From a virus: a stretch of DNA of 41,551 nucleotides. The stretch's first letter is position 1. Every line of letters starts with the position of its first letter. The position numbers and the translations under genes are program-made. Below are positions 2,609 to 41,551 of the stretch, piece after piece. A model generated the notes under the pieces. It saw only the letters and a list, made by a program, of their open reading frames with translations, had not been told where the DNA came from and searched no databases. The DNA lies in the IMG/VR virus record IMGVR_UViG_3300036846_000457, positions 1 to 41,551 of that record, one strand, 5' to 3'.

Positions 2609-2857
2609 TCATTCATTAATTTCTTTTGTAACTTTTTTAAAAATTCCTGAAACGTTCTCCTTTACTATATCATCTATTGCCTGCTCCACCGCTAGATCCT
2701 CATCAGCTTCACTCAATTGATCTGAAAGCTTAACAATTCGTGCAAGGTATGAACAACTATGGTGACCGCTTGATACATCATATGCATACCATGCTGCAAA
2801 GTTATCGAAAGGAGAATGTGGATTGTCTATTGTGGTAAGCATTGACTTAGTAACCAT
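2609..2857 (-). CDS. Conserved phage protein of unknown function
   Basis: This 82-residue soluble protein carries the string DNPHSPFDNFAAWYAYD and SCSYLARI followed by an acidic helical half. I recognise this layout from small proteins of many siphoviruses but know no assigned function. The ATG at 2857 follows a GAGAGAG stretch; a TTG one codon upstream is less likely. It lies 13 bases after the RNA polymerase-like gene, so the two are probably co-transcribed and it could act with that protein, though nothing in the sequence proves this. Confidence 0.75.
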   Translation of the reverse strand: MVTKSMLTTIDNPHSPFDNFAAWYAYDVSSGHHSCSYLARIVKLSDQLSEADEDLAVEQAIDDIVKENVSGIFKKVTKEINE

Positions 2858-2870
2858 CAATCATTCTCTC

Positions 2871-5564
2871 TCATTGAACTGTTGATCTATCCAATGTACT
2901 AAGTGATACACCAAGTGCAGCTGCTACATCAGCTCTACTATAACCAGACGCAAGCATAGCTTGAGCTCTTAGAGTCTTAGCATTAGTCATAAGTATCTTG
3001 TCTTTAGGCGCAGCATGGTCACGTACTACATCCATGTTAGCATGTGTTAGTATCTCACTTAGTTTAGAATTACTTATAGCACCGGCTTGAATAGCTTCCC
3101 ATTCCTTATCTGTTATTACTATCTTCTTCTTATTAGCACCGGTACGACGGCGGGCTTCTTCTAAAGCCTGGTACTTAATCTTAGTCTCGGTCTTAGCATC
3201 CATTCCTGGGTTGTAGTTCCTCTTAGTTTTCACTGTGCTATTGGCAATTAACTGGGCCTGCCGTTCAAGAGGGGCGTTTGATTTGGATAGGGCCAATTTA
3301 GAATCGAGGGAGGCTACTTCAGAATGGTATGCCCTTTTAGCAGATGGGTTGTATTTAGAAGGGGGAGTTTTAATTGCAGTAAGACGAGCCTCATTAGCCA
3401 TAGCCTTAAGCTTATTAGAATGCTGGGCATAATACAATTCCATTGTGGTACCGGATGAAAGAGTACGAGCATCTGGGGTAATGGCTAATCTCTCAACCTT
3501 TGATTGGATTGGTTTACCAGTTCTCCAATGTACTCTGCCTGTTGGCTCGTATACCTTCTCACCAGTAGTTTTGCTAATAGGACCCCCACTTTTCTGAGAC
3601 CGGGGTCTAAATTCTGGTACACGTACCTCGGCTCCTGCTCTAGAGATTAGAGTAGCCGCGCCACCCTTACCATCTGGTTGACGCTGGTATTCTTCCTTAA
3701 GTGCTTTGATATTATTCTCGTTATAAGATAGTCTGTAATTTAAATCATGTTTCTCAGCATCAATAACAACCATAGAATGTTTAATAGCTCTAGCTATCTT
3801 ATCATGACTAGCACCTTGAATAGTCATATCAGTAATAAGATTAGAAATAATACCCATCTCTGTTTGAGTATTACGCATTGGCTTCATACCAGGATGAGCA
3901 GGATAAGCTGTATGCGGGTCAAAGTTCTTAAGTTCTGCAAGAGCAGGAGTTGTTATAATCTTTCTTGATCTATTTGGAATAACCAAAACAGTATCACCAT
4001 CAAAGTCTGCACCAGACAAATGCTTGGCTACTTCATGATTAATACCAATAGCATCTCTTGCATTACCTAAAAGTTTTCTTGCATCAGAATGATTATTATT
4101 AACAACTAATTCAGGTATCTCAAACGTTCCACCATGTGGATGTCTAATCAAAACAACTACATCACCATTTTTAAAACTAGGGGCATAAACTTGAGTGGAT
4201 GGGAGGGATTGAACTGGAAGAAGAACTTTAACAGCTTGACCTGGCATAGCAGCAGCTTTTAAATCTACAGCTGCTGAATCAGTGGCATCAGCAAAATCAT
4301 TCAACAATCTTTTACGAACAGTAGGATTTGTAAGAGAGTTTATGTTTTCATAAATGTTTTGTCTCTGTTCATAAGTCATATCAAGTTGTGACTTAGCAAG
4401 CATCGGGCTTTGTTTAGACAACATCTGTGATGATAAACTTCTAGTCCACGTATCCCAATTACCTTCAACAGCTCCAGATTCTGGTTCACCTTCTTTGCCA
4501 CCAACAATATTCATTACTGATATTGGTTTAGCATCTCTATGCCCAGGGCGATCTACAATTTGACGAGTAATAGATCCAAATGGAAGATCTGGGTCAGTAG
4601 ATAAAGGTTTCATAGCATCCAATTTATTACCAGTATCATGCTTAGATGTATTAAATTGAAGATCTACGCCAGTTGGTAGACCATCTTTATACATAGCCAT
4701 ACCTTTTAAATAATGCCCATCACCAACTTGAACACGAACCTGAGCATATGGTGTTCCTCCAAGAGAAACATCTGAAACTCCTGGGCGAACATAAATCACA
4801 CCATCTGCTTTAGCTCCACCATCTGGGCCATAAACAACATCAACTCTCTTTTTATCAATTGCAAGAGGACCAGAAGGCTTTGTGTAAGACTTTCCACCAT
4901 CTTCAGAAAAATTACTAATCTGCTGAATCTTTTCTGGGTTTTGCCAAACTTCTTTTTGCGTTGACCCAGGAAGACCAAGAATTTTCATTCTTGTATCTTT
5001 CCCAGTAGCAATCTGTCTTACATTAACTGCGTGAACTTCATACCCTTGTTGCTTAAGCATTTCTACTGCAGTGTCTAATCTTGTTGAGCTAACACCAAGA
5101 TAATTTTCTACACCTTTTCCAACATCAATAAAGCCTTTTTCATCAACTTGTGATTTAAGCATATTAGAAGTTGATATAAGAATATCATTATTGGCGTTTT
5201 CGCCTTGCTTCAAATAATTTCTTACAGTTGATTCTGGTTGCCCCATTCTTTTAGCTATGGCATTAGTTGAATATCCTTTTTCTTTTAATCTTTGAGCCTG
5301 AGCAATATCAGATTGTCTTTGTTGATTTTTCTCAATTGAAATTGTTGCACGAAGCTGAGTTGTTGACATTCCCATGCCTTTAGCGATATCAGCTTCGCTC
5401 ATACCTTTTGCTTTTAATTCTCTTACTCGTTGACTAAATACTTGATTTCTAGTGTTAGTATCTTCTTTATTAGAATCACCCCAACCACCAGAACCCCAAG
5501 GATAACGACCAGAATGCCGTGGTGTTCCATAATGAGCTAGGTATTCTTCTTCAGTAATTATCAT
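2871..5564 (-). CDS. YonO-like single-chain RNA polymerase with helix-turn-helix domains
   Basis: This 897-residue protein shows the double-psi beta-barrel RNA polymerase signature ADFDGD at residues 519-524, whose Asp residues hold the catalytic magnesium in the beta-prime family. A preceding barrel-like part (about 285-310) contains HYLKGMAMYKDGLP with lysines expected in the second barrel. Helix-turn-helix-like segments lie at about 41-75, 90-118 and 866-893. The N-terminus carries HYGTPRHSGRYPWGSG, a tag seen on many phage proteins. The family is known from SPbeta YonO, which transcribes late genes. The ATG follows GAGGAGGTGTTTC. It is placed last but one before the late module. The polymerase call rests on motif and layout; the specific targets are inferred. 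Confidence 0.75.
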   Translation of the reverse strand: MIITEEEYLAHYGTPRHSGRYPWGSGGWGDSNKEDTNTRNQVFSQRVRELKAKGMSEADIAKGMGMSTTQLRATISIEKNQQRQSDIAQAQRLKEKGYSTNAIAKRMGQPESTVRNYLKQGENANNDILISTSNMLKSQVDEKGFIDVGKGVENYLGVSSTRLDTAVEMLKQQGYEVHAVNVRQIATGKDTRMKILGLPGSTQKEVWQNPEKIQQISNFSEDGGKSYTKPSGPLAIDKKRVDVVYGPDGGAKADGVIYVRPGVSDVSLGGTPYAQVRVQVGDGHYLKGMAMYKDGLPTGVDLQFNTSKHDTGNKLDAMKPLSTDPDLPFGSITRQIVDRPGHRDAKPISVMNIVGGKEGEPESGAVEGNWDTWTRSLSSQMLSKQSPMLAKSQLDMTYEQRQNIYENINSLTNPTVRKRLLNDFADATDSAAVDLKAAAMPGQAVKVLLPVQSLPSTQVYAPSFKNGDVVVLIRHPHGGTFEIPELVVNNNHSDARKLLGNARDAIGINHEVAKHLSGADFDGDTVLVIPNRSRKIITTPALAELKNFDPHTAYPAHPGMKPMRNTQTEMGIISNLITDMTIQGASHDKIARAIKHSMVVIDAEKHDLNYRLSYNENNIKALKEEYQRQPDGKGGAATLISRAGAEVRVPEFRPRSQKSGGPISKTTGEKVYEPTGRVHWRTGKPIQSKVERLAITPDARTLSSGTTMELYYAQHSNKLKAMANEARLTAIKTPPSKYNPSAKRAYHSEVASLDSKLALSKSNAPLERQAQLIANSTVKTKRNYNPGMDAKTETKIKYQALEEARRRTGANKKKIVITDKEWEAIQAGAISNSKLSEILTHANMDVVRDHAAPKDKILMTNAKTLRAQAMLASGYSRADVAAALGVSLSTLDRSTVQ

Positions 5565-5576
5565 GAAACACCTCCT

Positions 5577-6137
5577 CTAGAATCTATCAGATACTTTTAT
5601 CGCTTCGATCTGTTTGTCGAAATCTATAATTGTATTCATAATTTCCATTATTGTTTCTGAATATGGTTCGAACACTCTAACTTCATCTCTCTGATAAATA
5701 CGAAGTTCAACCTCAATTGAAAATGGATCAACGCTATATTCTAAACAAAATAATGCAGCATAAATTTCAAGTTGATGCTCTGAAGTTGGTGTCACGCCAG
5801 TTTTCAAATCATGAATTCTTAATTTATTTCTCCGAAAACTAATTGTATCAGCCATGCCAAAACAATTATCTGAGTAAAATAATATTTGCTCGCATTCCAT
5901 TTTATATCCAATGGCATCATTAACATAAGTTGCTAATGATTTATTTACTCTTGATAATCTGACACCAAGTCTTATTGCTTCATGAGCAAGCGCATGTAAA
6001 TCACTTCCTCTTCTTGCTGCCATAGAAGCGGCAAATCTTAGTTCTAGTTTTTCATCATTATAATTAAGCCAATGATAATTGCTAGGACTAAGAAACGCGT
6101 GGCGGCCGTATAACTCCGAATGCGCATTGAAGATCAT
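5577..6137 (-). CDS. PD-(D/E)XK nuclease, RecB/Cas4-like
   Basis: This 186-residue protein fits the RecB-family exonuclease fold: RRGSDLHALAHEAI near the start, a Glu in the KMECEQILFYSD segment, an Asp in CFGMADTISF, and the core IHDLKTG followed by HQLEIYAALF. The DLKTG and Q-x-x-x-Y motifs are diagnostic of PD-(D/E)XK enzymes. The likely role is DNA end processing in replication or recombination. I chose ATG at 6137 because AGGAGG lies nine bases upstream; an ATG at 6155 lacks this. It overlaps the VRR-NUC gene upstream by 50 bases and is followed 12 bases later by the RNA polymerase-like gene. Confidence 0.85.
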   Translation of the reverse strand: MIFNAHSELYGRHAFLSPSNYHWLNYNDEKLELRFAASMAARRGSDLHALAHEAIRLGVRLSRVNKSLATYVNDAIGYKMECEQILFYSDNCFGMADTISFRRNKLRIHDLKTGVTPTSEHQLEIYAALFCLEYSVDPFSIEVELRIYQRDEVRVFEPYSETIMEIMNTIIDFDKQIEAIKVSDRF

Positions 6138-6399
6138 ACAGCACATCCTCCTCATTATCCGGACTTATAAAAGATGCAAAAGACATGCTGTCCAACAAAC
6201 GAATGTAATGATTCTGATTTGGTCGAAGATATGATACCCCAGAAAGCTTAACTTCAAGCATAGCCCACATATTAGAAAACAAAATTATAAGGTCTGGAAT
6301 ACCAGGTTTATAGCTAGAATCATTCTTTAAAACAATACAACCAGGAAACAAAGATTCAAGTTTTCTTATAAGTTTTGTTTGATATTGAGCTTCTCTCAT
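6088..6399 (-). CDS. VRR-NUC domain endonuclease
   Basis: This 103-residue protein matches the short VRR-NUC nuclease type found in phages. GIPDLIILF contains Asp36, MLEVKLSG contains Glu49 and Lys51, and the Q in RPNQNHYI completes the PD-(D/E)XK core. Family members act on branched or flap DNA. The ATG at 6399 follows ACGGGG. The 3' end overlaps the next nuclease gene by 50 bases in another frame. A degenerate member of the phage promoter family lies upstream at 6442-6467, and this is the first gene behind it. Confidence 0.85.
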   Translation of the reverse strand: MREAQYQTKLIRKLESLFPGCIVLKNDSSYKPGIPDLIILFSNMWAMLEVKLSGVSYLRPNQNHYIRLLDSMSFASFISPDNEEDVLYDLQCAFGVIRPPRVS

Positions 6400-6441
6400 G
6401 GGCTACCCCGTAGAAAATATAGAAACTCTACCTACCTCTCC

Positions 6442-6467
6442 AATATATGCGTTGTTTTTTTGGACAC
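6442..6467 (-). promoter_or_regulatory. Degenerate promoter of the phage family (P10)
   Basis: On the minus strand the order is GTGTCC, 14 bases, TATATT, then GGAGAG. Part of the spacer (AAAAAAACAACGC) is the same as in the promoters at 20457 and 20584. The upstream box departs from TTCGCA, so activity may be weaker. It would drive the VRR-NUC, exonuclease and RNA polymerase-like genes. Confidence 0.5.
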
Positions 6468-10885: not shown

Positions 10886-10970
10886 AAAATGAAAAGAAGA
10901 GAACTCGCAGCATCATCTGCGCGGTATTATCGACGCTCCGTTGTGACGGACTCTGCCATACATTCTCTTC
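10886..10970 (-). ncRNA. Structured RNA element A behind a phage promoter
   Basis: Directly after the -10 box the minus strand reads GAAGAGAA (10970-10963), which pairs perfectly with TTCTCTTC (10903-10896). Inside are hairpins TCCGT-CACA-ACGGA (10950-10937) and CGCAG-ATGATG-CTGCG (10921-10906). The closing stem is followed by TTTTCATTTTT, like a terminator. It could be a free small RNA or a leader controlling the zinc-ribbon gene. A 16-codon frame inside has no ribosome binding site. Confidence 0.6.
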
Positions 10971-10996
10971 ATTATAATACATGTTTTTATTGCGAA
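10971..10996 (-). promoter_or_regulatory. Phage-type promoter P1
   Basis: The minus strand reads TTCGCA (10996-10991), 14 bases, TATAAT (10976-10971), then GAAGAG. It overlaps the last codons of the gene at 10987-11304 and precedes RNA element A. Confidence 0.8.
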
Positions 10997-11786: not shown

Positions 11787-12065
11787 TTATTCCTCCCTAG
11801 ATTTCTTGAAGGCTTTAATAAAATCAGCAATAACATCGTCATCTAAATCCAGCATATCTCGAAGCAAACTATAAAGAATGTCCAGTGAATATGCTGTTTC
11901 TGCTTCTTGTAAAATAACTCCGCTAAGTTCACGTGCTTTATTTGGAGTTAATGAACCTGTAATTACACTCCCAAATTTTGAATGAGCTGATATACTAACG
12001 ACGCCAACTCCAGCGTAATTTACACCAGCGTTTACATCTAATCTGGCAAGTTCATAATCACTCAC
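11787..12065 (-). CDS. Small protein coupled to the replication polymerase
   Basis: This 92-residue protein starts with GTG at 12065, overlapping the stop of the polymerase gene (GTGA). It has a beta-like N-terminal half (VSISAHSKFGSVITGSLTPNKARELS) and an acidic helical C-terminal half ending AFKKSREE. No known domain was recognised. Tight coupling on both sides, polymerase upstream and SSB-like protein downstream, suggests a replisome accessory. Confidence 0.7.
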   Translation of the reverse strand: MSDYELARLDVNAGVNYAGVGVVSISAHSKFGSVITGSLTPNKARELSGVILQEAETAYSLDILYSLLRDMLDLDDDVIADFIKAFKKSREE

Positions 12066-15000
12066 GACACAAGTTCCTCAAAGGGAACAAATCGTTCAAT
12101 TGATCTTATAGCATCTTTCTTCAATTTATCGAAATATTCCATATCGGTATGAAGCTCATCTATTGATTCACGATATTTTGCTAAATCACGTTCAATCCAC
12201 TGGTAACCCTTTGTTCCAGAAACGTGATATCGCTTCCCATCTTTAACTCTCCACAAAGAATGTCCATCATATTTGACTGGCATGAAACTTCCAGTACGAC
12301 CTACATGTCGTAGACCAGTCAATTCGTTTTGATCTTCGTCTTCAGGACCTAGATACATGGATCCTTGAGTAACTGATTTGACTTCGCAGAGATCGTCGAA
12401 TTCCAACGGTTCGTGCGAAAAGAGTTCTTTGAATACGTAAGGCTCTTGGAATTGAGCCCCGACAGCACTCCAGCCACCATTAACACTCGCGACATATACC
12501 GCATCGTTGATAAGAAGGAATCTGTCATAGGTTGTTTCATGTTCAAAAGTATAGCCGTAATCTCGTCCGAATTGGATGACGAAATCAATAATATCTTGGG
12601 TTGCATTTGGTATTTTAATAGAGTCCGTTTTGATATGCGCAACTTGATAACCTCTGTCTTGAACGGCATGCCGTAAATCTATCATGAATAAAGCGCCACG
12701 TTTAGCTACAATATTATCCTTGTTTCGTAAATCTCTGAATTGATTTTCAAAGCGAGCGCTCGTAAGGCCGTATACGATATTGATGACGATTTTGAGAGCG
12801 TACGCAAGTTGATCAGCACTTTTAGGGTTGTCTTCAGCACGCTCAAGAAACCTAGCGAGTCTACCGTCAAATAAACTTCTGGCTTTGTCGTAATCTTTAT
12901 GCTTGATCGCCATGCGAGCTTCCGTAAGGGCAGTGAAGTTTTTGGTATAAGGGCCAAAGAGATTGAGGCGCTCGATACTGGTCGGATGCATACTCGCAAC
13001 ATCCAGAAGCGCAACGTTGGTATAAAAACCAGGCTCGGAATAAACGTAACCACCTTCACCTGTGACTTCATCACAGTAAGTGCTTTCCTTTCCATCAAAT
13101 TGGTAACCTGGAAACTCTATACTTAGATCCGTGTAGACAAACTGTCTCTGTGGATTCTTGTCGTCTCCAAATATAATTTTAGCAGTATGTTGCTGCGTAG
13201 TGTGATTAACTGATAGTCCAGATAGTTCAGACAAGATTTGACGGGCTACAAAATCTTGTTTTTTATATTCGAATACTGCTTCTGTTGCTATGACATCATT
13301 AACACAGTATTCTTCTACTTTCTCCCACACACCTTCTGGAACTGGTTCATCCCATGCTAAATCCAATTCAAGATGGTGAATTCCAAGCTCTATTTGAAAC
13401 TTCTTCAAACCTTTCTTAGGCGTAGCTATAAAATCATAAATATCAGCATAGGAAATATTGTATGCTTCACCGAACATACCGTCTTGATTTCTATTATCCC
13501 CAAATATAATTCTCTGGCTTAGGTTAAACAATTCCTCGAGACTGTACCCCATGTATCGTCCATATAAAATATGGTTATCATATCGACGATTGTTAAACCC
13601 AACAAGTTTCTGATTAAATAACGGCGCTATATCATCGGCTGTTGGATTAATCATTCTAACAACTGTCGGCGATCCTTGATATTTCCAACACAGTATAAAC
13701 AAATTTGGGTATACTTCAACATCAAAGAAGATAATAGGTTTATCATCAGTATCAATTTCTGGCATGTTATCTTTTCCAACAAATTTCATCGTTTGGACAA
13801 GCTTTATACATGCCAGAGCTTGGTTTGTACTTTTTGCTGCAAATGCTAATACGATTGGCCGCATATCCTCAACATTATAACTTAGCCCATCATTATAAGC
13901 TTCTTCTAAAATATGATGAATGAAATCAATCGATGGTTTCGTTCCTGGATGAATCTCCTTTCGAAGATTTCTTTCAATTAACTCACGAAGCCCACGTTCG
14001 CTTTGAATACTTTTGGTTTCAATCATCTTTTTAGTTTCCTTTTTCGGAAGTCCGCCCGTCAAAGTAGCTACTTCAAGATTGTTACATTTTGTCAATTTTC
14101 TTCGTAGCGAACTATCACCCAAAAGAGTTTTAATCTCAATACCAACATCATAAATTGGATTCAAATCATGAACATTACCCGAGTAAATATAGTGAAGGTG
14201 TATTCCTTTACCACTCTTACTAAGTTCTGTGTAAGTGGGGGGAAATTTAGAAGCCTCCTCTATATTCCTCTCAAGATCTTTTTCCCCATCTTCATCTACT
14301 AAGTCGAAATCAATAACTATATGTTGTTCTGGAACCTTTACAAAATGAAGCTCAGTTGTGTCAATATCTTTTAAGACGGTTTGTACTTTCTCCCATTTAT
14401 ATCTAGGATATCCACTATCTTTTGCTAATTGTGCAGGTTGATCAGGATATAAAGTATTAAATGCAGAATCATAATAAATCGGATCATAATCTGATAATTC
14501 AATTACATACGAAGTATCTGGTATAAATGGGGTTGGGCCTTGTTCTGGCAATCCTTTAAACCCAATATAAACACTTCTGTATTCTTTTTCCCCCATAACA
14601 TGCCGATCCTTAAGTTCTGCGAAATAACTACATAATTCATCCCTTACTTCATGATACTGAAGACGTTTAACAATGTTTGCTTCTTCACAATACTGCTTGT
14701 ATAAATCCCATGCGTGTTTAAGTTGAATTCCATCTTGCGATTTGAATACATCGAAATATGCTTCCACAAAGTTGTAAAATGTATCAGTCAACATCATCAT
14801 TTTTGTAGGAAGATAATTTTCGTAATAGAATTTACCCATTTCACGATATCTTTGCAAACATTTGAATGCTATAGCGCCTAGCTCATATTTTATATTTTCT
14901 ATGAGAATATGATATCTATTTGGTTCAATCTTTACGCCAGTAGGATGAACATCAATAAGTCGTCTTGTATTTCCAGATTTTGCGTCGGAGATTTTTACTG

Positions 15001-15832
15001 GTTTGTTTGTTCCAACCACTACGAAAGCATTGGGTCTTATCGTGAAAGCTGATCTATATTTTACATTAATATTCATCGAATCGTGACCAACAATAGAATT
15101 GAGCTTTGTGTTGTCCTCAACTTTTGATAAATCACCATCGTGCTGAATTGCTACTAGCGGGTTGCTTTCAAATGACTCCATTGCAAACGTACCGTTGCTG
15201 CTTGTCAATGCTTTGGCTTCAAACGTTGCCACATAGCCAGCAAACAATTTTTCTATTATACTAATTACAGTAGATTTACCTGTTGCCGGTGGGCCATAGA
15301 ATACAAGAAACTTTTGAATCCAGCGTGAATCTCCTGATACAATTGCTCCTATAGCCCACTCTATTTTGTCTCGTTCTTCAGGAGAATATAGAACTCCTAG
15401 AAGCTCATCCCAACAATCGGTTTTACCAGGTTCTAGAGAATATGGAAGTTTTTTACTTACGTAATCTTTTTTTCTAGTTTCTGTGTTGGCAAAGGTTATA
15501 TGTTCATCTAATTGCTGATAACTACTATTATGTGGTAAATTTCGTACAAACTTGTTAAATCTTTCCCAACTACCACTACTAAAATTTCTAGTATAAAGCG
15601 GTTCTAGGACAGCACCTTTAATTCTAGAATCTTCCACAAAGTCATGTATATCGTTATCTACAAGTCTTCTGACATCAAATTCATTAGTGGACCACATACC
15701 AAGATTCTCATCCCAGACAGCGTAGAAAGATCCTCCTCTAATCATTAGATCATCAACGTTATCTACAATCCAATCTGGGTATGCTTGTGGGATGCCTTTA
15801 GTCTCCTTTACTTTAATTCGGTAGAAGTCCAC
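12062..15832 (-). CDS. SF3 helicase, AEP primase and family B DNA polymerase in one protein
   Basis: This is one unbroken frame of 1256 residues. Residues about 90-300 are a D5-type SF3 helicase: Walker A GPPATGKST (180-188), a Walker B-like segment ending QHDGD, sensor GTNKP (274-278) and NTRR (288-291). Residues about 440-600 match an archaeo-eukaryotic primase: IDFDL (507-511), SGKGIHLHY (540-548) and GIEIK (564-568). Residues about 700-860 are a 3'-5' exonuclease: FFDVEVY (702-708), GFNNRRYDN (745-753) and YCVND (842-846). Polymerase motifs follow: A DVASMHPTSI (944-953), B KIVINIVYG (1014-1022), C KTDS (1068-1071). Start GTG at 15832 follows AGGGGGTGAT. It probably unwinds, primes and copies the phage DNA. 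Primase after helicase reverses the usual order. Confidence 0.9.
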   Translation of the reverse strand: MDFYRIKVKETKGIPQAYPDWIVDNVDDLMIRGGSFYAVWDENLGMWSTNEFDVRRLVDNDIHDFVEDSRIKGAVLEPLYTRNFSSGSWERFNKFVRNLPHNSSYQQLDEHITFANTETRKKDYVSKKLPYSLEPGKTDCWDELLGVLYSPEERDKIEWAIGAIVSGDSRWIQKFLVFYGPPATGKSTVISIIEKLFAGYVATFEAKALTSSNGTFAMESFESNPLVAIQHDGDLSKVEDNTKLNSIVGHDSMNINVKYRSAFTIRPNAFVVVGTNKPVKISDAKSGNTRRLIDVHPTGVKIEPNRYHILIENIKYELGAIAFKCLQRYREMGKFYYENYLPTKMMMLTDTFYNFVEAYFDVFKSQDGIQLKHAWDLYKQYCEEANIVKRLQYHEVRDELCSYFAELKDRHVMGEKEYRSVYIGFKGLPEQGPTPFIPDTSYVIELSDYDPIYYDSAFNTLYPDQPAQLAKDSGYPRYKWEKVQTVLKDIDTTELHFVKVPEQHIVIDFDLVDEDGEKDLERNIEEASKFPPTYTELSKSGKGIHLHYIYSGNVHDLNPIYDVGIEIKTLLGDSSLRRKLTKCNNLEVATLTGGLPKKETKKMIETKSIQSERGLRELIERNLRKEIHPGTKPSIDFIHHILEEAYNDGLSYNVEDMRPIVLAFAAKSTNQALACIKLVQTMKFVGKDNMPEIDTDDKPIIFFDVEVYPNLFILCWKYQGSPTVVRMINPTADDIAPLFNQKLVGFNNRRYDNHILYGRYMGYSLEELFNLSQRIIFGDNRNQDGMFGEAYNISYADIYDFIATPKKGLKKFQIELGIHHLELDLAWDEPVPEGVWEKVEEYCVNDVIATEAVFEYKKQDFVARQILSELSGLSVNHTTQQHTAKIIFGDDKNPQRQFVYTDLSIEFPGYQFDGKESTYCDEVTGEGGYVYSEPGFYTNVALLDVASMHPTSIERLNLFGPYTKNFTALTEARMAIKHKDYDKARSLFDGRLARFLERAEDNPKSADQLAYALKIVINIVYGLTSARFENQFRDLRNKDNIVAKRGALFMIDLRHAVQDRGYQVAHIKTDSIKIPNATQDIIDFVIQFGRDYGYTFEHETTYDRFLLINDAVYVASVNGGWSAVGAQFQEPYVFKELFSHEPLEFDDLCEVKSVTQGSMYLGPEDEDQNELTGLRHVGRTGSFMPVKYDGHSLWRVKDGKRYHVSGTKGYQWIERDLAKYRESIDELHTDMEYFDKLKKDAIRSIERFVPFEELVS

Positions 15833-19317: not shown

Positions 19318-19344
19318 TACAATCACTCCTTTAAGTGTTCTCTC

Positions 19345-19370
19345 ATTATAATGATTGTAATTTTTGCGAA
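19345..19370 (-). promoter_or_regulatory. Phage-type promoter P2
   Basis: The minus strand reads TTCGCA (19370-19365), 14 bases, TATAAT (19350-19345), then GAGAGA. It lies directly behind the stop of the tiny peptide gene at 19371 and serves the gene at 19153. Confidence 0.85.
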
Positions 19371-20394: not shown

Positions 20395-20456
20395 ATGAGA
20401 AGCTCAGATTTCTCTGAGTTTGGCTGAATGCCAAAAAGCTGGCTTCGCTTCCTCTC
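20395..20456 (-). ncRNA. Structured leader RNA element C
   Basis: After promoter P3 the minus strand folds into several hairpins: CTCAGA-GAAA-TCTGAG (20418-20403), GCCA..TGGC (20443-20430), and an outer arm with ATGAGAGGAAGC (20458-20447) opposite GCTTCTCAT (20403-20395), with a bulge. A run TATTTTTTG follows. It lies 25 bases before the ribosome binding site of the gene at 20220 and may be a regulatory leader. Confidence 0.5.
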
Positions 20457-20482
20457 ATTATAAGCGTTGTTTTTTTTGCGAA
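20457..20482 (-). promoter_or_regulatory. Phage-type promoter P3
   Basis: The minus strand reads TTCGCA (20482-20477), 14 bases, TATAAT (20462-20457), then GAGAGG. The spacer AAAAAAACAACGCT is identical to that of P4. It drives element C and the genes at 20220 and 19468. Confidence 0.85.
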
Positions 20483-20490
20483 CTGAAAAA

Positions 20491-20583
20491 AATGAAGAGA
20501 TGGATCGCAGGCTACCCCGCCTTTCGTTGGGCCGCATCGGTTCTTACGAACCTAGCTCGATCCTCCTGCGAGATGCTCTCTTC
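20491..20583 (-). ncRNA. Structured small RNA B with own promoter and terminator-like end
   Basis: Between P4 and P3 there are 93 bases with no gene of their own. GAAGAGA (20583-20577), just after the -10 box, pairs with TCTCTTC (20500-20494), and TCGCAGG with CCTGCGA inside it. Within is a GGTTC-GTAA-GAACC hairpin with a GNRA loop. The closing stem is followed by ATTTTTTT. Promoter, compact fold and T-run make a discrete small RNA likely. An AGGAGG in the 5' part has no start codon at a useful distance. Confidence 0.7.
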
Positions 20584-20609
20584 ATTATAAGCGTTGTTTT
20601 TTTTGCGAA
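20584..20609 (-). promoter_or_regulatory. Phage-type promoter P4
   Basis: The minus strand reads TTCGCA (20609-20604), 14 bases, TATAAT (20589-20584), then GAAGAG. It drives RNA element B. Confidence 0.85.
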
Positions 20610-20896: not shown

Positions 20897-20921
20897 TATT
20901 ACTCCTTAATAGTAATCTCTC

Positions 20922-20947
20922 ATTATATGCGTTGTAAATCTTGCGAA
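20922..20947 (-). promoter_or_regulatory. Phage-type promoter P5
   Basis: The minus strand reads TTCGCA (20947-20942), 14 bases, TATAAT (20927-20922), then GAGAGA. It serves the gene at 20663. Confidence 0.85.
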
Positions 20948-21183: not shown

Positions 21184-21204
21184 TAATTCTCCTTTATAGT
21201 CTCC

Positions 21205-21230
21205 ATTATATGCGTTGTAAATTTTGCGAA
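21205..21230 (-). promoter_or_regulatory. Phage-type promoter P6
   Basis: The minus strand reads TTCGCA (21230-21225), 14 bases, TATAAT (21210-21205), then GGAGAC. It serves the gene at 20980. Confidence 0.85.
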
Positions 21231-21460: not shown

Positions 21461-21478
21461 TATTATTCCTTTCTCTCC

Positions 21479-21504
21479 ATTATAATCGTTGTAAATTATA
21501 CGAA
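21479..21504 (-). promoter_or_regulatory. Phage-type promoter P7
   Basis: The minus strand reads TTCGTA (21504-21499), 14 bases, TATAAT (21484-21479), then GGAGAG. The upstream box has one difference from TTCGCA. It serves the gene at 21272. Confidence 0.8.
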
Positions 21505-21761: not shown

Positions 21762-21789
21762 TTCATTAATCCTTTCAAATATAGTCTCC

Positions 21790-21815
21790 ATTATAATGCT
21801 TGTTTAAATTGCGAA
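21790..21815 (-). promoter_or_regulatory. Phage-type promoter P8
   Basis: The minus strand reads TTCGCA (21815-21810), 14 bases, TATAAT (21795-21790), then GGAGAC. It serves the gene at 21549. The GC-rich element at 21833-21850 lies 17 bases upstream. Confidence 0.85.
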
Positions 21816-22305: not shown

Positions 22306-22327
22306 TATTATTCCTTTCATAGTCTCC

Positions 22328-22353
22328 ATTATAATAATTGTTTATTCTGCGAA
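22328..22353 (-). promoter_or_regulatory. Phage-type promoter P9
   Basis: The minus strand reads TTCGCA (22353-22348), 14 bases, TATAAT (22333-22328), then GGAGAC. It overlaps the stop codon of the gene at 22342 and serves the gene at 22006. Confidence 0.85.
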
Positions 22354-30065: not shown

Positions 30066-30914
30066 TTAAATTCCTCCAATATCTTCACATACTACAATCC
30101 CGCTATTAGCGAGAATCTTTCCTGTAGCTCCGCTTATGTATTGAAACACAAGATCCGGGGAATTACCAGTTGTTGTTGCTTTTAAAAATGCATTTCCCCA
30201 TCCGCTCATTCCTTCTCCGGCTGCATTATTGCGCTCATCGACCATATTATAAGGAACTTCTCCCCATCCGAGAAAACGAAGAGAGTTAGCTCCACCTGCA
30301 GGATTACCTGTTCGCACTGTACCGGTTGCACGATAACGTCGATTAGCTATAACTTGAAAACGCCCAACTGTCCACAATGGATTAGCACCAGATATATCAC
30401 TTGGCGGTCCTTTTATCTCTGCAATATATCCACGAGGATTTTTCCAATTAATATCAACCCAAACGCCAGCATTACGTACAAATTCAGTACCAACAGGAGC
30501 TTGGCAATAAGATCCATTTGGAGGATTTAACCAACGTGCATCACGTTCTGCAATATCAGCAAATATACGTGGAGTATTTACTATAAACCAACCATTAACA
30601 TCTTTTTCCCACATAATAGCATTATCAACAGCAAGAGCTATCGATCCATTTGGAGCCGTAGTCCATCCGTCTATTGCTGCTTTATTTGGGAAAACACGAG
30701 GGGAATAAACCGCCGAAGCAGAAACATCATTAACTGAACCAATAGGCCCAACTGGGCCTACAGGACCTACCGGACCACGAACATTTCCTGCATCGATAGT
30801 TATTCCATCTCGTCGTGAAAGAATAAGATTATCGCCTTGAACTTCACCGTCAACGACAGTTTCATTTTCGATTACAAGCATACGCTCAGCAGTAAATCCA
30901 GTTACAGTTGCCAT
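30066..30914 (-). CDS. Tail fibre with short collagen stretch and adhesin head
   Basis: In this 282-residue protein, the N-terminal part MATVTGFTAERMLVIENETV through ITIDAGNVRGP resembles fibre attachment domains. A short GPVGPVGPVGPIG stretch follows, then a middle region with two PPNGSY/APNGSI turns. The C-terminus from about residue 165 (IKGPPSDISGANPLW) is homologous to the tip of the fibre at 635-1915. Two fibres with the same type of tip may bind related receptors or form a mixed trimer. The gene overlaps the second tail tube gene by 13 bases. Confidence 0.8.
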   Translation of the reverse strand: MATVTGFTAERMLVIENETVVDGEVQGDNLILSRRDGITIDAGNVRGPVGPVGPVGPIGSVNDVSASAVYSPRVFPNKAAIDGWTTAPNGSIALAVDNAIMWEKDVNGWFIVNTPRIFADIAERDARWLNPPNGSYCQAPVGTEFVRNAGVWVDINWKNPRGYIAEIKGPPSDISGANPLWTVGRFQVIANRRYRATGTVRTGNPAGGANSLRFLGWGEVPYNMVDERNNAAGEGMSGWGNAFLKATTTGNSPDLVFQYISGATGKILANSGIVVCEDIGGI

Positions 30915-38752: not shown

Positions 38753-39454
38753 TTAACGCTTAATGATTTGCCCAGCTACTTTCTGCCCAAATTTTTTAGC
38801 TAAACCTGATTTTATTCCATACAATGCTGCTCCAGTAATAGCTGTTGCTGCAACAGTTGAACCAACTTGAGTAAGAATTTGAGTAGCTACTCTTTCGCCA
38901 TGTGAAACATCACGAGAATTAAGCTGATTATATCGTTTTTCAATTTCCATACGTCTAATTCGTTGTTCAAGGTCATGAGTACTTAAATTTTTTGGATGCT
39001 TAGCATAAGTAGTTCTATTAGTTCCTCGTCTACTTCTTTGATCGCTTTTTCCTCGTTGAGTTCTAACCCCCCAGTGCATTCCCTTTTTACCATAATGATC
39101 AATAAACTCTTGAACTGAAGAATGCCTAGCTAAAGACGGTGGAGGTTGCAAACTCAATTTTGAATAAAGTCCTCGCAACTTACTAGCTGCAGACGCTTGT
39201 TGCTGAGGAGAAGCATGGACACCACCCCTTGCACCAGCTAATGCAGCAGCCGCAGCTTGTACTCCATTTTTATTAAGCGCACCATTGGGCGTTTTTACTG
39301 GAAGCTTACATTGCGCTTTAGTAGTTGGAGCTCCAGTATGCAAATGAATAAGACAAGCATTGTGCCATTGCTCTATGGTATAATCAGAAGCTGTATAGTT
39401 GCTCCAAGGTACAGTACTGACATGCTCAATAAACTCTTTCACGCTTTGATTCAT
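38753..39454 (-). CDS. Head-region protein with HYG-WGVR tag
   Basis: In this 233-residue protein, the first 110 residues hold YTIEQWHNACLIH and CKLPVKTPNGALNKNGVQAA, a pattern also found near phage protease and scaffold proteins. At about residues 118-130 is HYGKKGMHWGVR, a short tag present on many phage head-associated proteins. The C-terminus has a basic helical part and a hydrophobic stretch (GSTVAATAITGAALYGI). It is coupled to the connector gene by ATGA. It may be packaged in the capsid, an inference from tag and position. Confidence 0.7.
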   Translation of the reverse strand: MNQSVKEFIEHVSTVPWSNYTASDYTIEQWHNACLIHLHTGAPTTKAQCKLPVKTPNGALNKNGVQAAAAALAGARGGVHASPQQQASAASKLRGLYSKLSLQPPPSLARHSSVQEFIDHYGKKGMHWGVRTQRGKSDQRSRRGTNRTTYAKHPKNLSTHDLEQRIRRMEIEKRYNQLNSRDVSHGERVATQILTQVGSTVAATAITGAALYGIKSGLAKKFGQKVAGQIIKR

Positions 39455-40917: not shown

Positions 40918-41551
40918 TATGTGACAGAGGCGGTCCAAGAGGTTGACCAAGTTTGTGGCCCAACTAGACCATCAACACTCAGACCCTTCTCCGCCTGGAA
41001 CTGACGAGCTACGCCAGATGATTGAGGACCATACACACCATCCACCCCTATGTTCCACCCCCTATTCGCCATCTGCTGTTGCCACGTGCGAACGTTTTGT
41101 GTATCCACTCCACCGTAAGCTCCGGAATGACAATGTGGGTCGGCTGATGGTTCCCCAAGATAATCGGAGGCTGGGTAGGGAAAGGGAGGTGCGGCTCCTC
41201 CTGGTTTTGGTGGACTTGGAGTTGGTTGTGGAGGAGTTGGAGAAGGAGTTACTCCGCCGGCCATTTGGATAACGCGATCCATTGGGAAGCCGTTGCCGCA
41301 ATCTACGTGTCCTCCACCACCAGACCCCAAATCAATGTGTTGACAGATTCCTCTTCCATTACCTTGTGCTTCACCAGGACTCAATCTTTTAAGTGGAACT
41401 CCAAACGCTGCACATTCCTCAGCGATCCATTTTGCGCAATTATCAAGCATGTTTGGATGTTGATCCCATTCAGCTGTTGACCAAGCAGCGAATGCACACA
41501 ACTCCATTTGAACCGCAACAGGATTGTAGTTTGCAGCAGTCCAAGCTTTGT
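40917..41551 (-). CDS. Endolysin, C-terminal part (continues in bases 1-394)
   Basis: This is the 3' part of the amidase, including the terminal repeat. After the amidase domain comes a proline-rich linker (TPSPTPPQPTPSPPKPGG), then a C-terminal peptidoglycan-binding domain of about 60 residues with QNVRTWQQQMANRG and VDGVYGPQSSGVARQFQ, ending VDGLVGPQTW. This is the PG_binding_1 pattern with D-G-x-x-G-P repeats. This domain arrangement is common in lysins of phages from Gram-positive hosts. The stop shares a base with the holin start. Confidence 0.9.
   Translation of the reverse strand, partial: KAWTAANYNPVAVQMELCAFAAWSTAEWDQHPNMLDNCAKWIAEECAAFGVPLKRLSPGEAQGNGRGICQHIDLGSGGGGHVDCGNGFPMDRVIQMAGGVTPSPTPPQPTPSPPKPGGAAPPFPYPASDYLGEPSADPHCHSGAYGGVDTQNVRTWQQQMANRGWNIGVDGVYGPQSSGVARQFQAEKGLSVDGLVGPQTWSTSWTASVT
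41366..41551. repeat. Terminal direct repeat, right copy
   Basis: This copy matches bases 1-186 except G for A at 41424. See the left copy for meaning. The repeat lies entirely in the endolysin coding region. Confidence 0.95.

Follow-up and report, generated by a model that had tools for sequence, protein, structure and literature searches.

The polymerase gene and its genome

The viral genome studied here (IMG/VR record IMGVR_UViG_3300036846_000457, positions 1 to 41,551; this whole stretch of 41,551 nucleotides is referred to as the window) codes on its (-) strand for a single-chain protein that, to judge from its modeled fold, is almost certainly a two-barrel RNA polymerase. A promoter-like motif accompanies this enzyme across phages, and its N terminus carries a conserved tag (Table 1). 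The two ends of the window form a direct terminal repeat of 186 bp (1-186 and 41366-41551, 99% identical); the genome therefore closes on itself, and the window represents a circularized, probably complete genome of ~41.37 kb. Along the coding (-) strand come, one after another, terminase, portal, capsid, tail, small early open reading frames (ORFs), DNA polymerase, helicase, nucleases, the single-chain polymerase, and a small ORF, 3' of which there are collagen-like fibre ORFs and, past the join, a lysin, an HNH gene, and the terminase. This gene order matches that of Streptomyces phage RosaAsantewaa. The original prediction, made from the letters of this stretch, had placed the polymerase just ahead of the late module, which is true on the circular map only, since in linear relatives the polymerase gene is the last or next-to-last one.

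Strand, length, and ATG start of the ORF are as predicted. The protein matches the family phrog_4291 ("RNA-dependent RNA polymerase") along residues 3-894 of 897 (E=0), and tblastn found relatives in 250 phage records, all below 60% identity, with Arthrobacter, Gordonia, Streptomyces, Lactococcus, Curtobacterium, Rhodococcus, Microbacterium, and Faecalibacterium as hosts. Family members in cultured phages include gp94 of Arthrobacter phage Mudcat and gp77 of Lactococcus phage P078. Using the P078 polymerase as the query, only one more viral contig was reached. PHROG 4291 and the SEA-PHAGES "helix-turn-helix DNA-binding domain protein" are this same family; both labels are annotations, not tested functions, and the RNA-template label was probably inherited from a fold match. 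The family is previously catalogued as PHROG 4291 and the enzyme itself is not new, and no functional study of it was found in the papers searched. Relatives with 39-49% identity are also present in Firmicutes prophages (Lachnospiraceae, Ruminococcus, Faecalibacterium, and others; L657-L736), most of them with the N-terminal tag.

In the family alignment (66 sequences, the most distant 38% identical), residues D520, D522, D524, K287, G288, R474, P476, and H477 are invariant, and K308 is kept in at least 90% of the relatives. Both motifs on which the original prediction had relied, ADFDGD at 519-524 and KGMAMYKDGLP from K287, are present, and the expected clustering of aspartates in an aligned DFDGD region was found. 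The three helix-turn-helix (HTH) segments that it proposed were also recovered, both as Pfam matches and as helices in an AlphaFold model, at residues 43-63, 86-120, and 861-896; the best Pfam stretches are 86-120 and 865-891, with weaker matches within 42-85.

Structural kinship with known polymerases

Single-chain two-barrel polymerases are considered close in form to the common ancestor of the cellular RNA polymerases. The AlphaFold model of the window protein, built on the 66-row alignment, has a mean predicted local distance difference test score (pLDDT) of 80 and a predicted template modeling score of 0.68. Its top Foldseek matches in the PDB are QDE-1 (E 7.9e-9), followed by P74-26 gp62 (2.1e-6) and plant RDR2. 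When residues 233-730 were compared with VIA-align, Z was 15-18 versus QDE-1 and RDR2 (for QDE-1, about 17, with a root mean square deviation of about 4.4 Å over about 370 residues) and 12.9 over 356 residues versus P74-26 gp62. The predicted cellular-type, two-barrel polymerase in one chain thus finds support at the fold level, in the superposition of residues 233-730 on QDE-1 and P74-26 gp62 and in the score of residues 437-540 against double-psi beta barrel (DPBB) domains, Z being about 11 versus cellular polymerase large subunits and a designed barrel (7di0). Single-sequence phmmer and the family profile retrieved nothing relevant among PDB sequences, only HTH-like or chance matches; therefore, the kinship is visible by fold only.

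The best fold match across both barrels comes from QDE-1 and the eukaryotic RNA interference polymerases; however, QDE-1 is eukaryotic, uses RNA and DNA templates, has no HTH, and is about 12% identical to the window polymerase. The term "YonO-like" used in the original prediction applies to the catalytic region, where hhalign against a profile of 24 YonO homologues keeps R-PH ... DxDGD ... SN-IT in register, but not in the narrow sense (E 0.061, probability 0.9%, catalytic region only). Membership in the clade of QDE-1, YonO, and phage single-chain polymerases is supported by the modeled fold and the active site; strict YonO family membership is not shown by these comparisons. YonO, from Bacillus phage SPbeta, shares with the window enzyme one chain of similar size, a temperate-phage-like genome, two barrels, and the aspartate triad. 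In contrast, its consensus has four conserved cysteines near the C terminus (C799, C802, C816, and C819), none of which is found in the window family, which ends in an HTH, and lacks the HYG tag and the three HTH segments. YonO is a non-virion enzyme that transcribes the late genes of SPbeta, and its promoter sequence has been reported as undetermined (PMC5467207); the NCgl1702-like polymerases have been named as its relatives (PMC7824862). The products gp64/gp62 and gp96 of phages P23-45/P74-26 are, like the window enzyme, single-chain two-barrel phage polymerases. In P23-45, gp64 is the non-virion RNA polymerase (RNAP) and gp96 the virion RNAP serving pre-early genes (PMC10770324).

A promoter-like motif that tracks the polymerase

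Repeat analysis of the window revealed a repeat of 30-40 nt between small genes, which in coding orientation reads TTCGCA-N5-7-ACAA-N4-TATAATGRAGA. A matrix scan found nine clear copies at 37-44 bits and one variant at 18.4 bits, all on the coding strand, while shuffled or simulated sequence reaches at most about 14 bits. The matrix was trained on the nine window copies themselves, so the tests in other genomes weigh more than the window scores. The ATG of the next ORF is usually 18-30 nt past TATAAT, with a ribosome-binding site between them, and transcript leaders would therefore be short. No TTGACA-like -35 box was seen 16-18 nt upstream of TATAAT when the aligned window sites were inspected, and the matrix scan found no motif before late or structural genes in the window; the transcription of these genes may come from read-through or from the host.

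Across the family, the motif takes the form CGCA-N4-7-ACA-N5-TATAATGRRR, spans ~30 bp, and sits a short way upstream of early and replication genes. When intergenic stretches were searched blind for motifs, genome by genome and without any window motif as seed, it came out as the top result in G001, G003, G007, G012, RosaAsantewaa, P078, Rickmore, and Mudcat, in all eight cases well above shuffles. With a common matrix, each genome had 5-12 sites, which lie on the coding strand with one exception and are usually followed by a ribosome-binding site and an ATG. The stretch of SPbeta scanned with this matrix contained no sites. A loose pattern also matched in YonO-phage loci, but these matches traced to a single conserved coding stretch of the opposite strand and were discarded as promoters.

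The viral collection was scanned with the pattern TTACA-N4-CTATAATGAGA, giving at least 120 matches, often several per contig, versus 25 single matches in total for a control pattern with a spacer three bases longer. Among the matches listed, 28 of the 39 motif-bearing contigs of at least 30 kb contain the polymerase, versus none of 17 contigs with the altered spacing. The 11 listed contigs with motif and no polymerase were not taken as counter-examples: nine carry the same terminase and belong to the same lineage, and two are unrelated, with single, probably chance, sites. Three of the polymerase-less contigs were opened, and all end before the polymerase locus.

Judged by sequence, motif and enzyme diverge together. 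The polymerase of Faecalibacterium phage FP_oengus is ~41% identical to that of the window, and its genome has 12 diverged sites of the form CGCGAAAAATACAGCCTCCTTTATGGA, all on the coding strand, ten in the early region and two in the replication region. These sites keep the CGC...CA...ATGG frame, and the TATAAT (-10-like) box becomes CTTTATG; Oengus-type promoters are represented by CTTTATGG and Mudcat-type ones by TATAATG. Phages that infect Streptomyces, Gordonia, Arthrobacter, and Lactococcus all keep the layout, and two Firmicutes prophage loci have it as well (CACGCAGTTTATACAATGCATATTATGG and ATACGCGAAAATAACACCTCCTATTATG). No such motif was found in the 10 kb upstream of 18 other prophage loci, a stretch usually without an early region. 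It is very likely, given this joint distribution, that polymerases of the window family read the motif. The idea that the HTH segments could give promoter recognition without a sigma factor has therefore held in outline, as a dedicated motif different from that of sigma-70 tracks the polymerase, the HTH segments being candidate readers. Genome G005 (L472-L474) also contains a perfect 30-nt repeat, ACATAGGAGTGACGAAAGGGTATGAACTAG, in four intergenic copies, unrelated to the promoter motif.

A conserved N-terminal tag

The polymerase tag, with consensus HYG..R.SGRYPWGSG, comprises some of the most conserved residues of the protein among the 66 relatives. It was found in 79 of 80 polymerase loci in a first search and in all 20 polymerases reached through the promoter motif. 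A strict pattern matched 67 of 79 prophage polymerases, and most of the remainder had variants of the tag. In the model, residues 11-40 have pLDDT <50 and are predicted to be disordered, and for this reason we set aside the possibility that the tag is a piece of the folded core.

Another tag of this kind, HYGVKGMKWG, belongs to effector-like proteins of the Pfam family DUF7211, which are encoded by nearly all relatives with long flanks (146 of 150 tag proteins scanned match DUF7211). It lies within the first 30 residues in 176 of 234 sampled non-redundant tag proteins. Some of the 150 scanned proteins have the tag joined to a 2H phosphoesterase, GNAT, or papain-fold glutamine deamidase domain, and other fused domains occur as well. 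Of 71 tag loci spanning 6 kb or more, 70 contain a terminase, portal, or capsid relative on the same strand, the median gap being 13.5 nt. Proteins in this same slot beside terminase and portal can also bear the polymerase-type tag, SGRYPWGSG, namely, three neighbors in L218, two of them with GNAT-like C termini by inspection, and one in L250. DUF7211 (PF23847) is not among the best 25 of the 30 Pfam families listed for the polymerase, and the literature search found no paper on the tag. DUF7211 tag proteins stand beside terminase or portal in L218, L323, L351, L406, and others, with up to eight tags in 5.5 kb in L323.

The position and fusions of the DUF7211 proteins make it possible that their tag is a general virion cargo tag, and the conserved, disordered tag of the polymerase suggests a putative virion cargo signal too. 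In phage T4, a capsid targeting sequence acts as a brief N-terminal signal common to unrelated internal proteins, which are packaged and injected. This sequence would be an analogue of the putative tag, with no sequence relation between them. A different solution is found in P23-45, whose virion RNAP is delivered as part of the tape measure protein (PMC10770324), whereas the window enzyme is made as a protein of its own that bears a short tag at its N terminus.

Role of the polymerase and alternative explanations

Considering all of the above, we find it likely that the window codes for a DNA-dependent two-barrel polymerase that reads an early-gene promoter and is possibly carried in the virion. 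Its template is most likely DNA. The late-transcription role that its position had suggested was not upheld, as the motif precedes early and replication genes and not structural genes; unlike YonO, which serves late genes (PMC5467207), the polymerase is best read as serving early genes, which the candidate promoters precede. Whether it is a virion polymerase is, in our estimate, evenly balanced. We propose that the polymerase would be present early in infection and that its own DNA-binding segments, for which the HTH segments are the obvious candidates, would bind CGCA and ACA without a host sigma factor. The DNA would then open around TATAATG, transcription would start a few bases downstream, and short-leader transcripts would be made of the early genes first and of the replication genes afterwards. 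The variant motif ahead of the polymerase's own operon (in the window, L002-L004, and Oengus) would amplify the polymerase, and the tag might perhaps place some of it in the virion, allowing early transcription after injection. In its broadest form, the proposal is that a widespread group of phages of actinobacterial and Firmicutes hosts package a free two-barrel polymerase by means of a DUF7211-like cargo tag, which would also load enzyme effectors, and that the injected enzyme starts sigma-independent early promoters; we put this forward tentatively, as slightly short of an even chance.

Several observations weigh against this reading. The polymerase tag is not the DUF7211 string, with which it shares its letters in part, and the link between them consists of this resemblance and the few proteins in L218 and L250; the PHROG label "virion structural protein" on DUF7211 proteins is no more than an annotation. 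Phage lineage is a confounder of the joint occurrence of motif and polymerase, and another protein shared within the lineage could be the reader. Most members have a TATAAT core, which is also favored by host sigma factors, and similarity to YonO by sequence (hhalign) is marginal. For the window, G005, G009, G020, and the first Oengus stretch, the motif did not come first in the blind search; the first four nevertheless hold 9, 12, 5, and 7 common-matrix sites, respectively, on one strand each.

The polymerase might also read the motif without being in the virion, being first expressed from a host-read promoter or by read-through, as is T7 gene 1, with the tag binding, e.g., a phage or host partner. 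This is a real, if lesser, possibility, and would agree with the non-virion nature of YonO and P23-45 gp64 (PMC5467207; PMC10770324) and with a polymerase gene that, in almost every linear relative, occupies the extreme right end, as this end could enter the cell first. However, a simple scan, in which other host promoter forms would be missed, found no sigma-70-like site just upstream of the nuclease-polymerase operon on the coding strand, and the operon has a variant form of the enzyme's own motif ahead of it, which leaves the first round unexplained. Besides, the tag equals the active site in conservation and yet is predicted to be disordered, and resembles the tags of proteins beside portal and terminase. 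A more distant, unlikely alternative is that the host RNA polymerase reads the motif, a phage DNA-binding protein at CGCA/ACA replacing the -35 box, while the two-barrel enzyme serves other, perhaps late, promoters, as YonO does (PMC5467207). Small HTH proteins are indeed encoded in these phages, and the TATAAT core resembles the sigma-70 -10 box; but the window sites lack a suitably spaced TTGACA-like -35, the layout is constant across phages of Streptomyces, Gordonia, Arthrobacter, and Lactococcus, and in FP_oengus it is the -10-like box that is replaced by CTTTATG and the CGC...CA...ATGG frame that is kept.

The remaining alternatives concern the enzyme itself. That it is an RNA-dependent RNA polymerase (RdRP), as in the PHROG and RefSeq labels, making double-stranded RNA instead of transcripts, seems very improbable to us, even if the nearest solved folds are QDE-1 and plant RDR2, the family label of phrog_4291 says so, and the eukaryotic-type RdRP family PF05183 gives a weak match below the threshold (17.4 bits versus a cut-off of 23.8, E 0.002). 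QDE-1 also uses DNA (titles of 7y7s and 7y7t), the tested phage relatives, YonO and the P23-45 RNAPs, are DNA dependent (PMC5467207; PMC10770324), and the DNA-binding HTH segments together with the linked DNA promoter motif point to DNA. Least probable of all is a degenerate or structural protein keeping the fold without catalysis, considering that the active-site aspartates and lysine are invariant in 66 sequences down to 38% identity.

How single-chain two-barrel enzymes find start sites without sigma becomes testable with a predicted promoter that tracks its enzyme, and the cultured phages of Streptomyces, Gordonia, Arthrobacter, Lactococcus, and Faecalibacterium offer natural enzyme-promoter pairs, some of them diverged and suited to swaps of specificity in vitro. 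Should the tag prove to load proteins into the virion, it would account for the large set of short-tagged phage proteins beside portal genes and provide siphophages with a simple route for sending enzymes in along with their DNA. Neither the promoter class, nor its connection with the enzyme, its early-gene position, or the conserved tag was found in the papers searched, and together they make the role of the polymerase directly testable.

Neighboring genes and other features

Table 1. Features of the polymerase locus, tag proteins, and promoter motifs in the window
Feature	Position	Strand	Remarks
Small partner ORF (phrog_4303)	2609..2860	-	Directly downstream of polymerase; likely start ATG at 2848
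Single-chain two-barrel RNA polymerase (predicted), 897 aa, phrog_4291 family	2871..5564	-	Full-length ORF, ATG start; profile, alignment, AlphaFold model
C-terminal HTH, residues 861-896	2877..2984	-	Pfam, model
Second barrel region, residues 437-540	3945..4256	-	Structure matches including designed DPBB 7di0 and RNA polymerase large subunits
Catalytic DFDGD, residues 520-524	3993..4007	-	ORF translation, alignment
First barrel region with LKG motif, residues 233-355, K287	4500..4868	-	Limits estimated from secondary structure
N-terminal HTH segments, residues 43-120	5205..5438	-	Pfam HTH_23/HTH_38, model helices
N-terminal tag, residues 11-27, HYGTPRHSGRYPWGSGG	5484..5534	-	Near-invariant in family; pLDDT <50
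RecB/Cas4-like exonuclease	5577..6155	-	phrog_3953; upstream of polymerase, same apparent operon
VRR-NUC-like endonuclease	6088..6399	-	phrog_93; Pfam match below cut-off; first gene of apparent operon
Variant promoter motif GTGTCCAAAAAAACAACGCATATATTGGAGAGGT	6434..6467	-	Ahead of nuclease-polymerase operon; counterparts in L002, L003, L004, Oengus
Promoter motif	10963..10996	-	Repeat analysis, matrix scan
Promoter motif	19337..19370	-	Repeat analysis, matrix scan
Promoter motif	20449..20482	-	Repeat analysis, matrix scan
Promoter motif	20576..20609	-	Repeat analysis, matrix scan
Promoter motif	20914..20947	-	25 nt from TATAAT to ribosome-binding site and ATG of small ORF
Promoter motif	21197..21230	-	TATAAT to ORF start 21 nt
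Promoter motif	21471..21504	-	TATAAT to ORF start 18 nt
Promoter motif	21782..21815	-	TATAAT to ORF start 28 nt
Promoter motif	22320..22353	-	Matrix scan
DUF7211 tag protein HYGKKGMHWGVR	38753..39454	-	Adjoins terminase; related tag

In 75 of 81 loci, among them P078, Oengus, Rickmore, and Mudcat, the polymerase gene has a small ORF of the phrog_4303 family (80-90 codons, MLTTxDNPxxPF...) directly behind it, and the phrog_4303 family is present in 246 phage records versus 250 for the polymerase. This distribution marks the small protein as a conserved partner and, possibly, an accessory factor.

Two collagen-like ORFs (635-1927 and 30066-30914) have similar C-terminal regions in their translations. 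One of them directly follows the polymerase region, and the ORF at 635-1927 is tail-fibre-like by PHROG. Positions 12062-15832 code for a replication protein of 1256 aa with a DUF5906 helicase-like domain, whose relatives are labeled primase/polymerase or helicase/polymerase.

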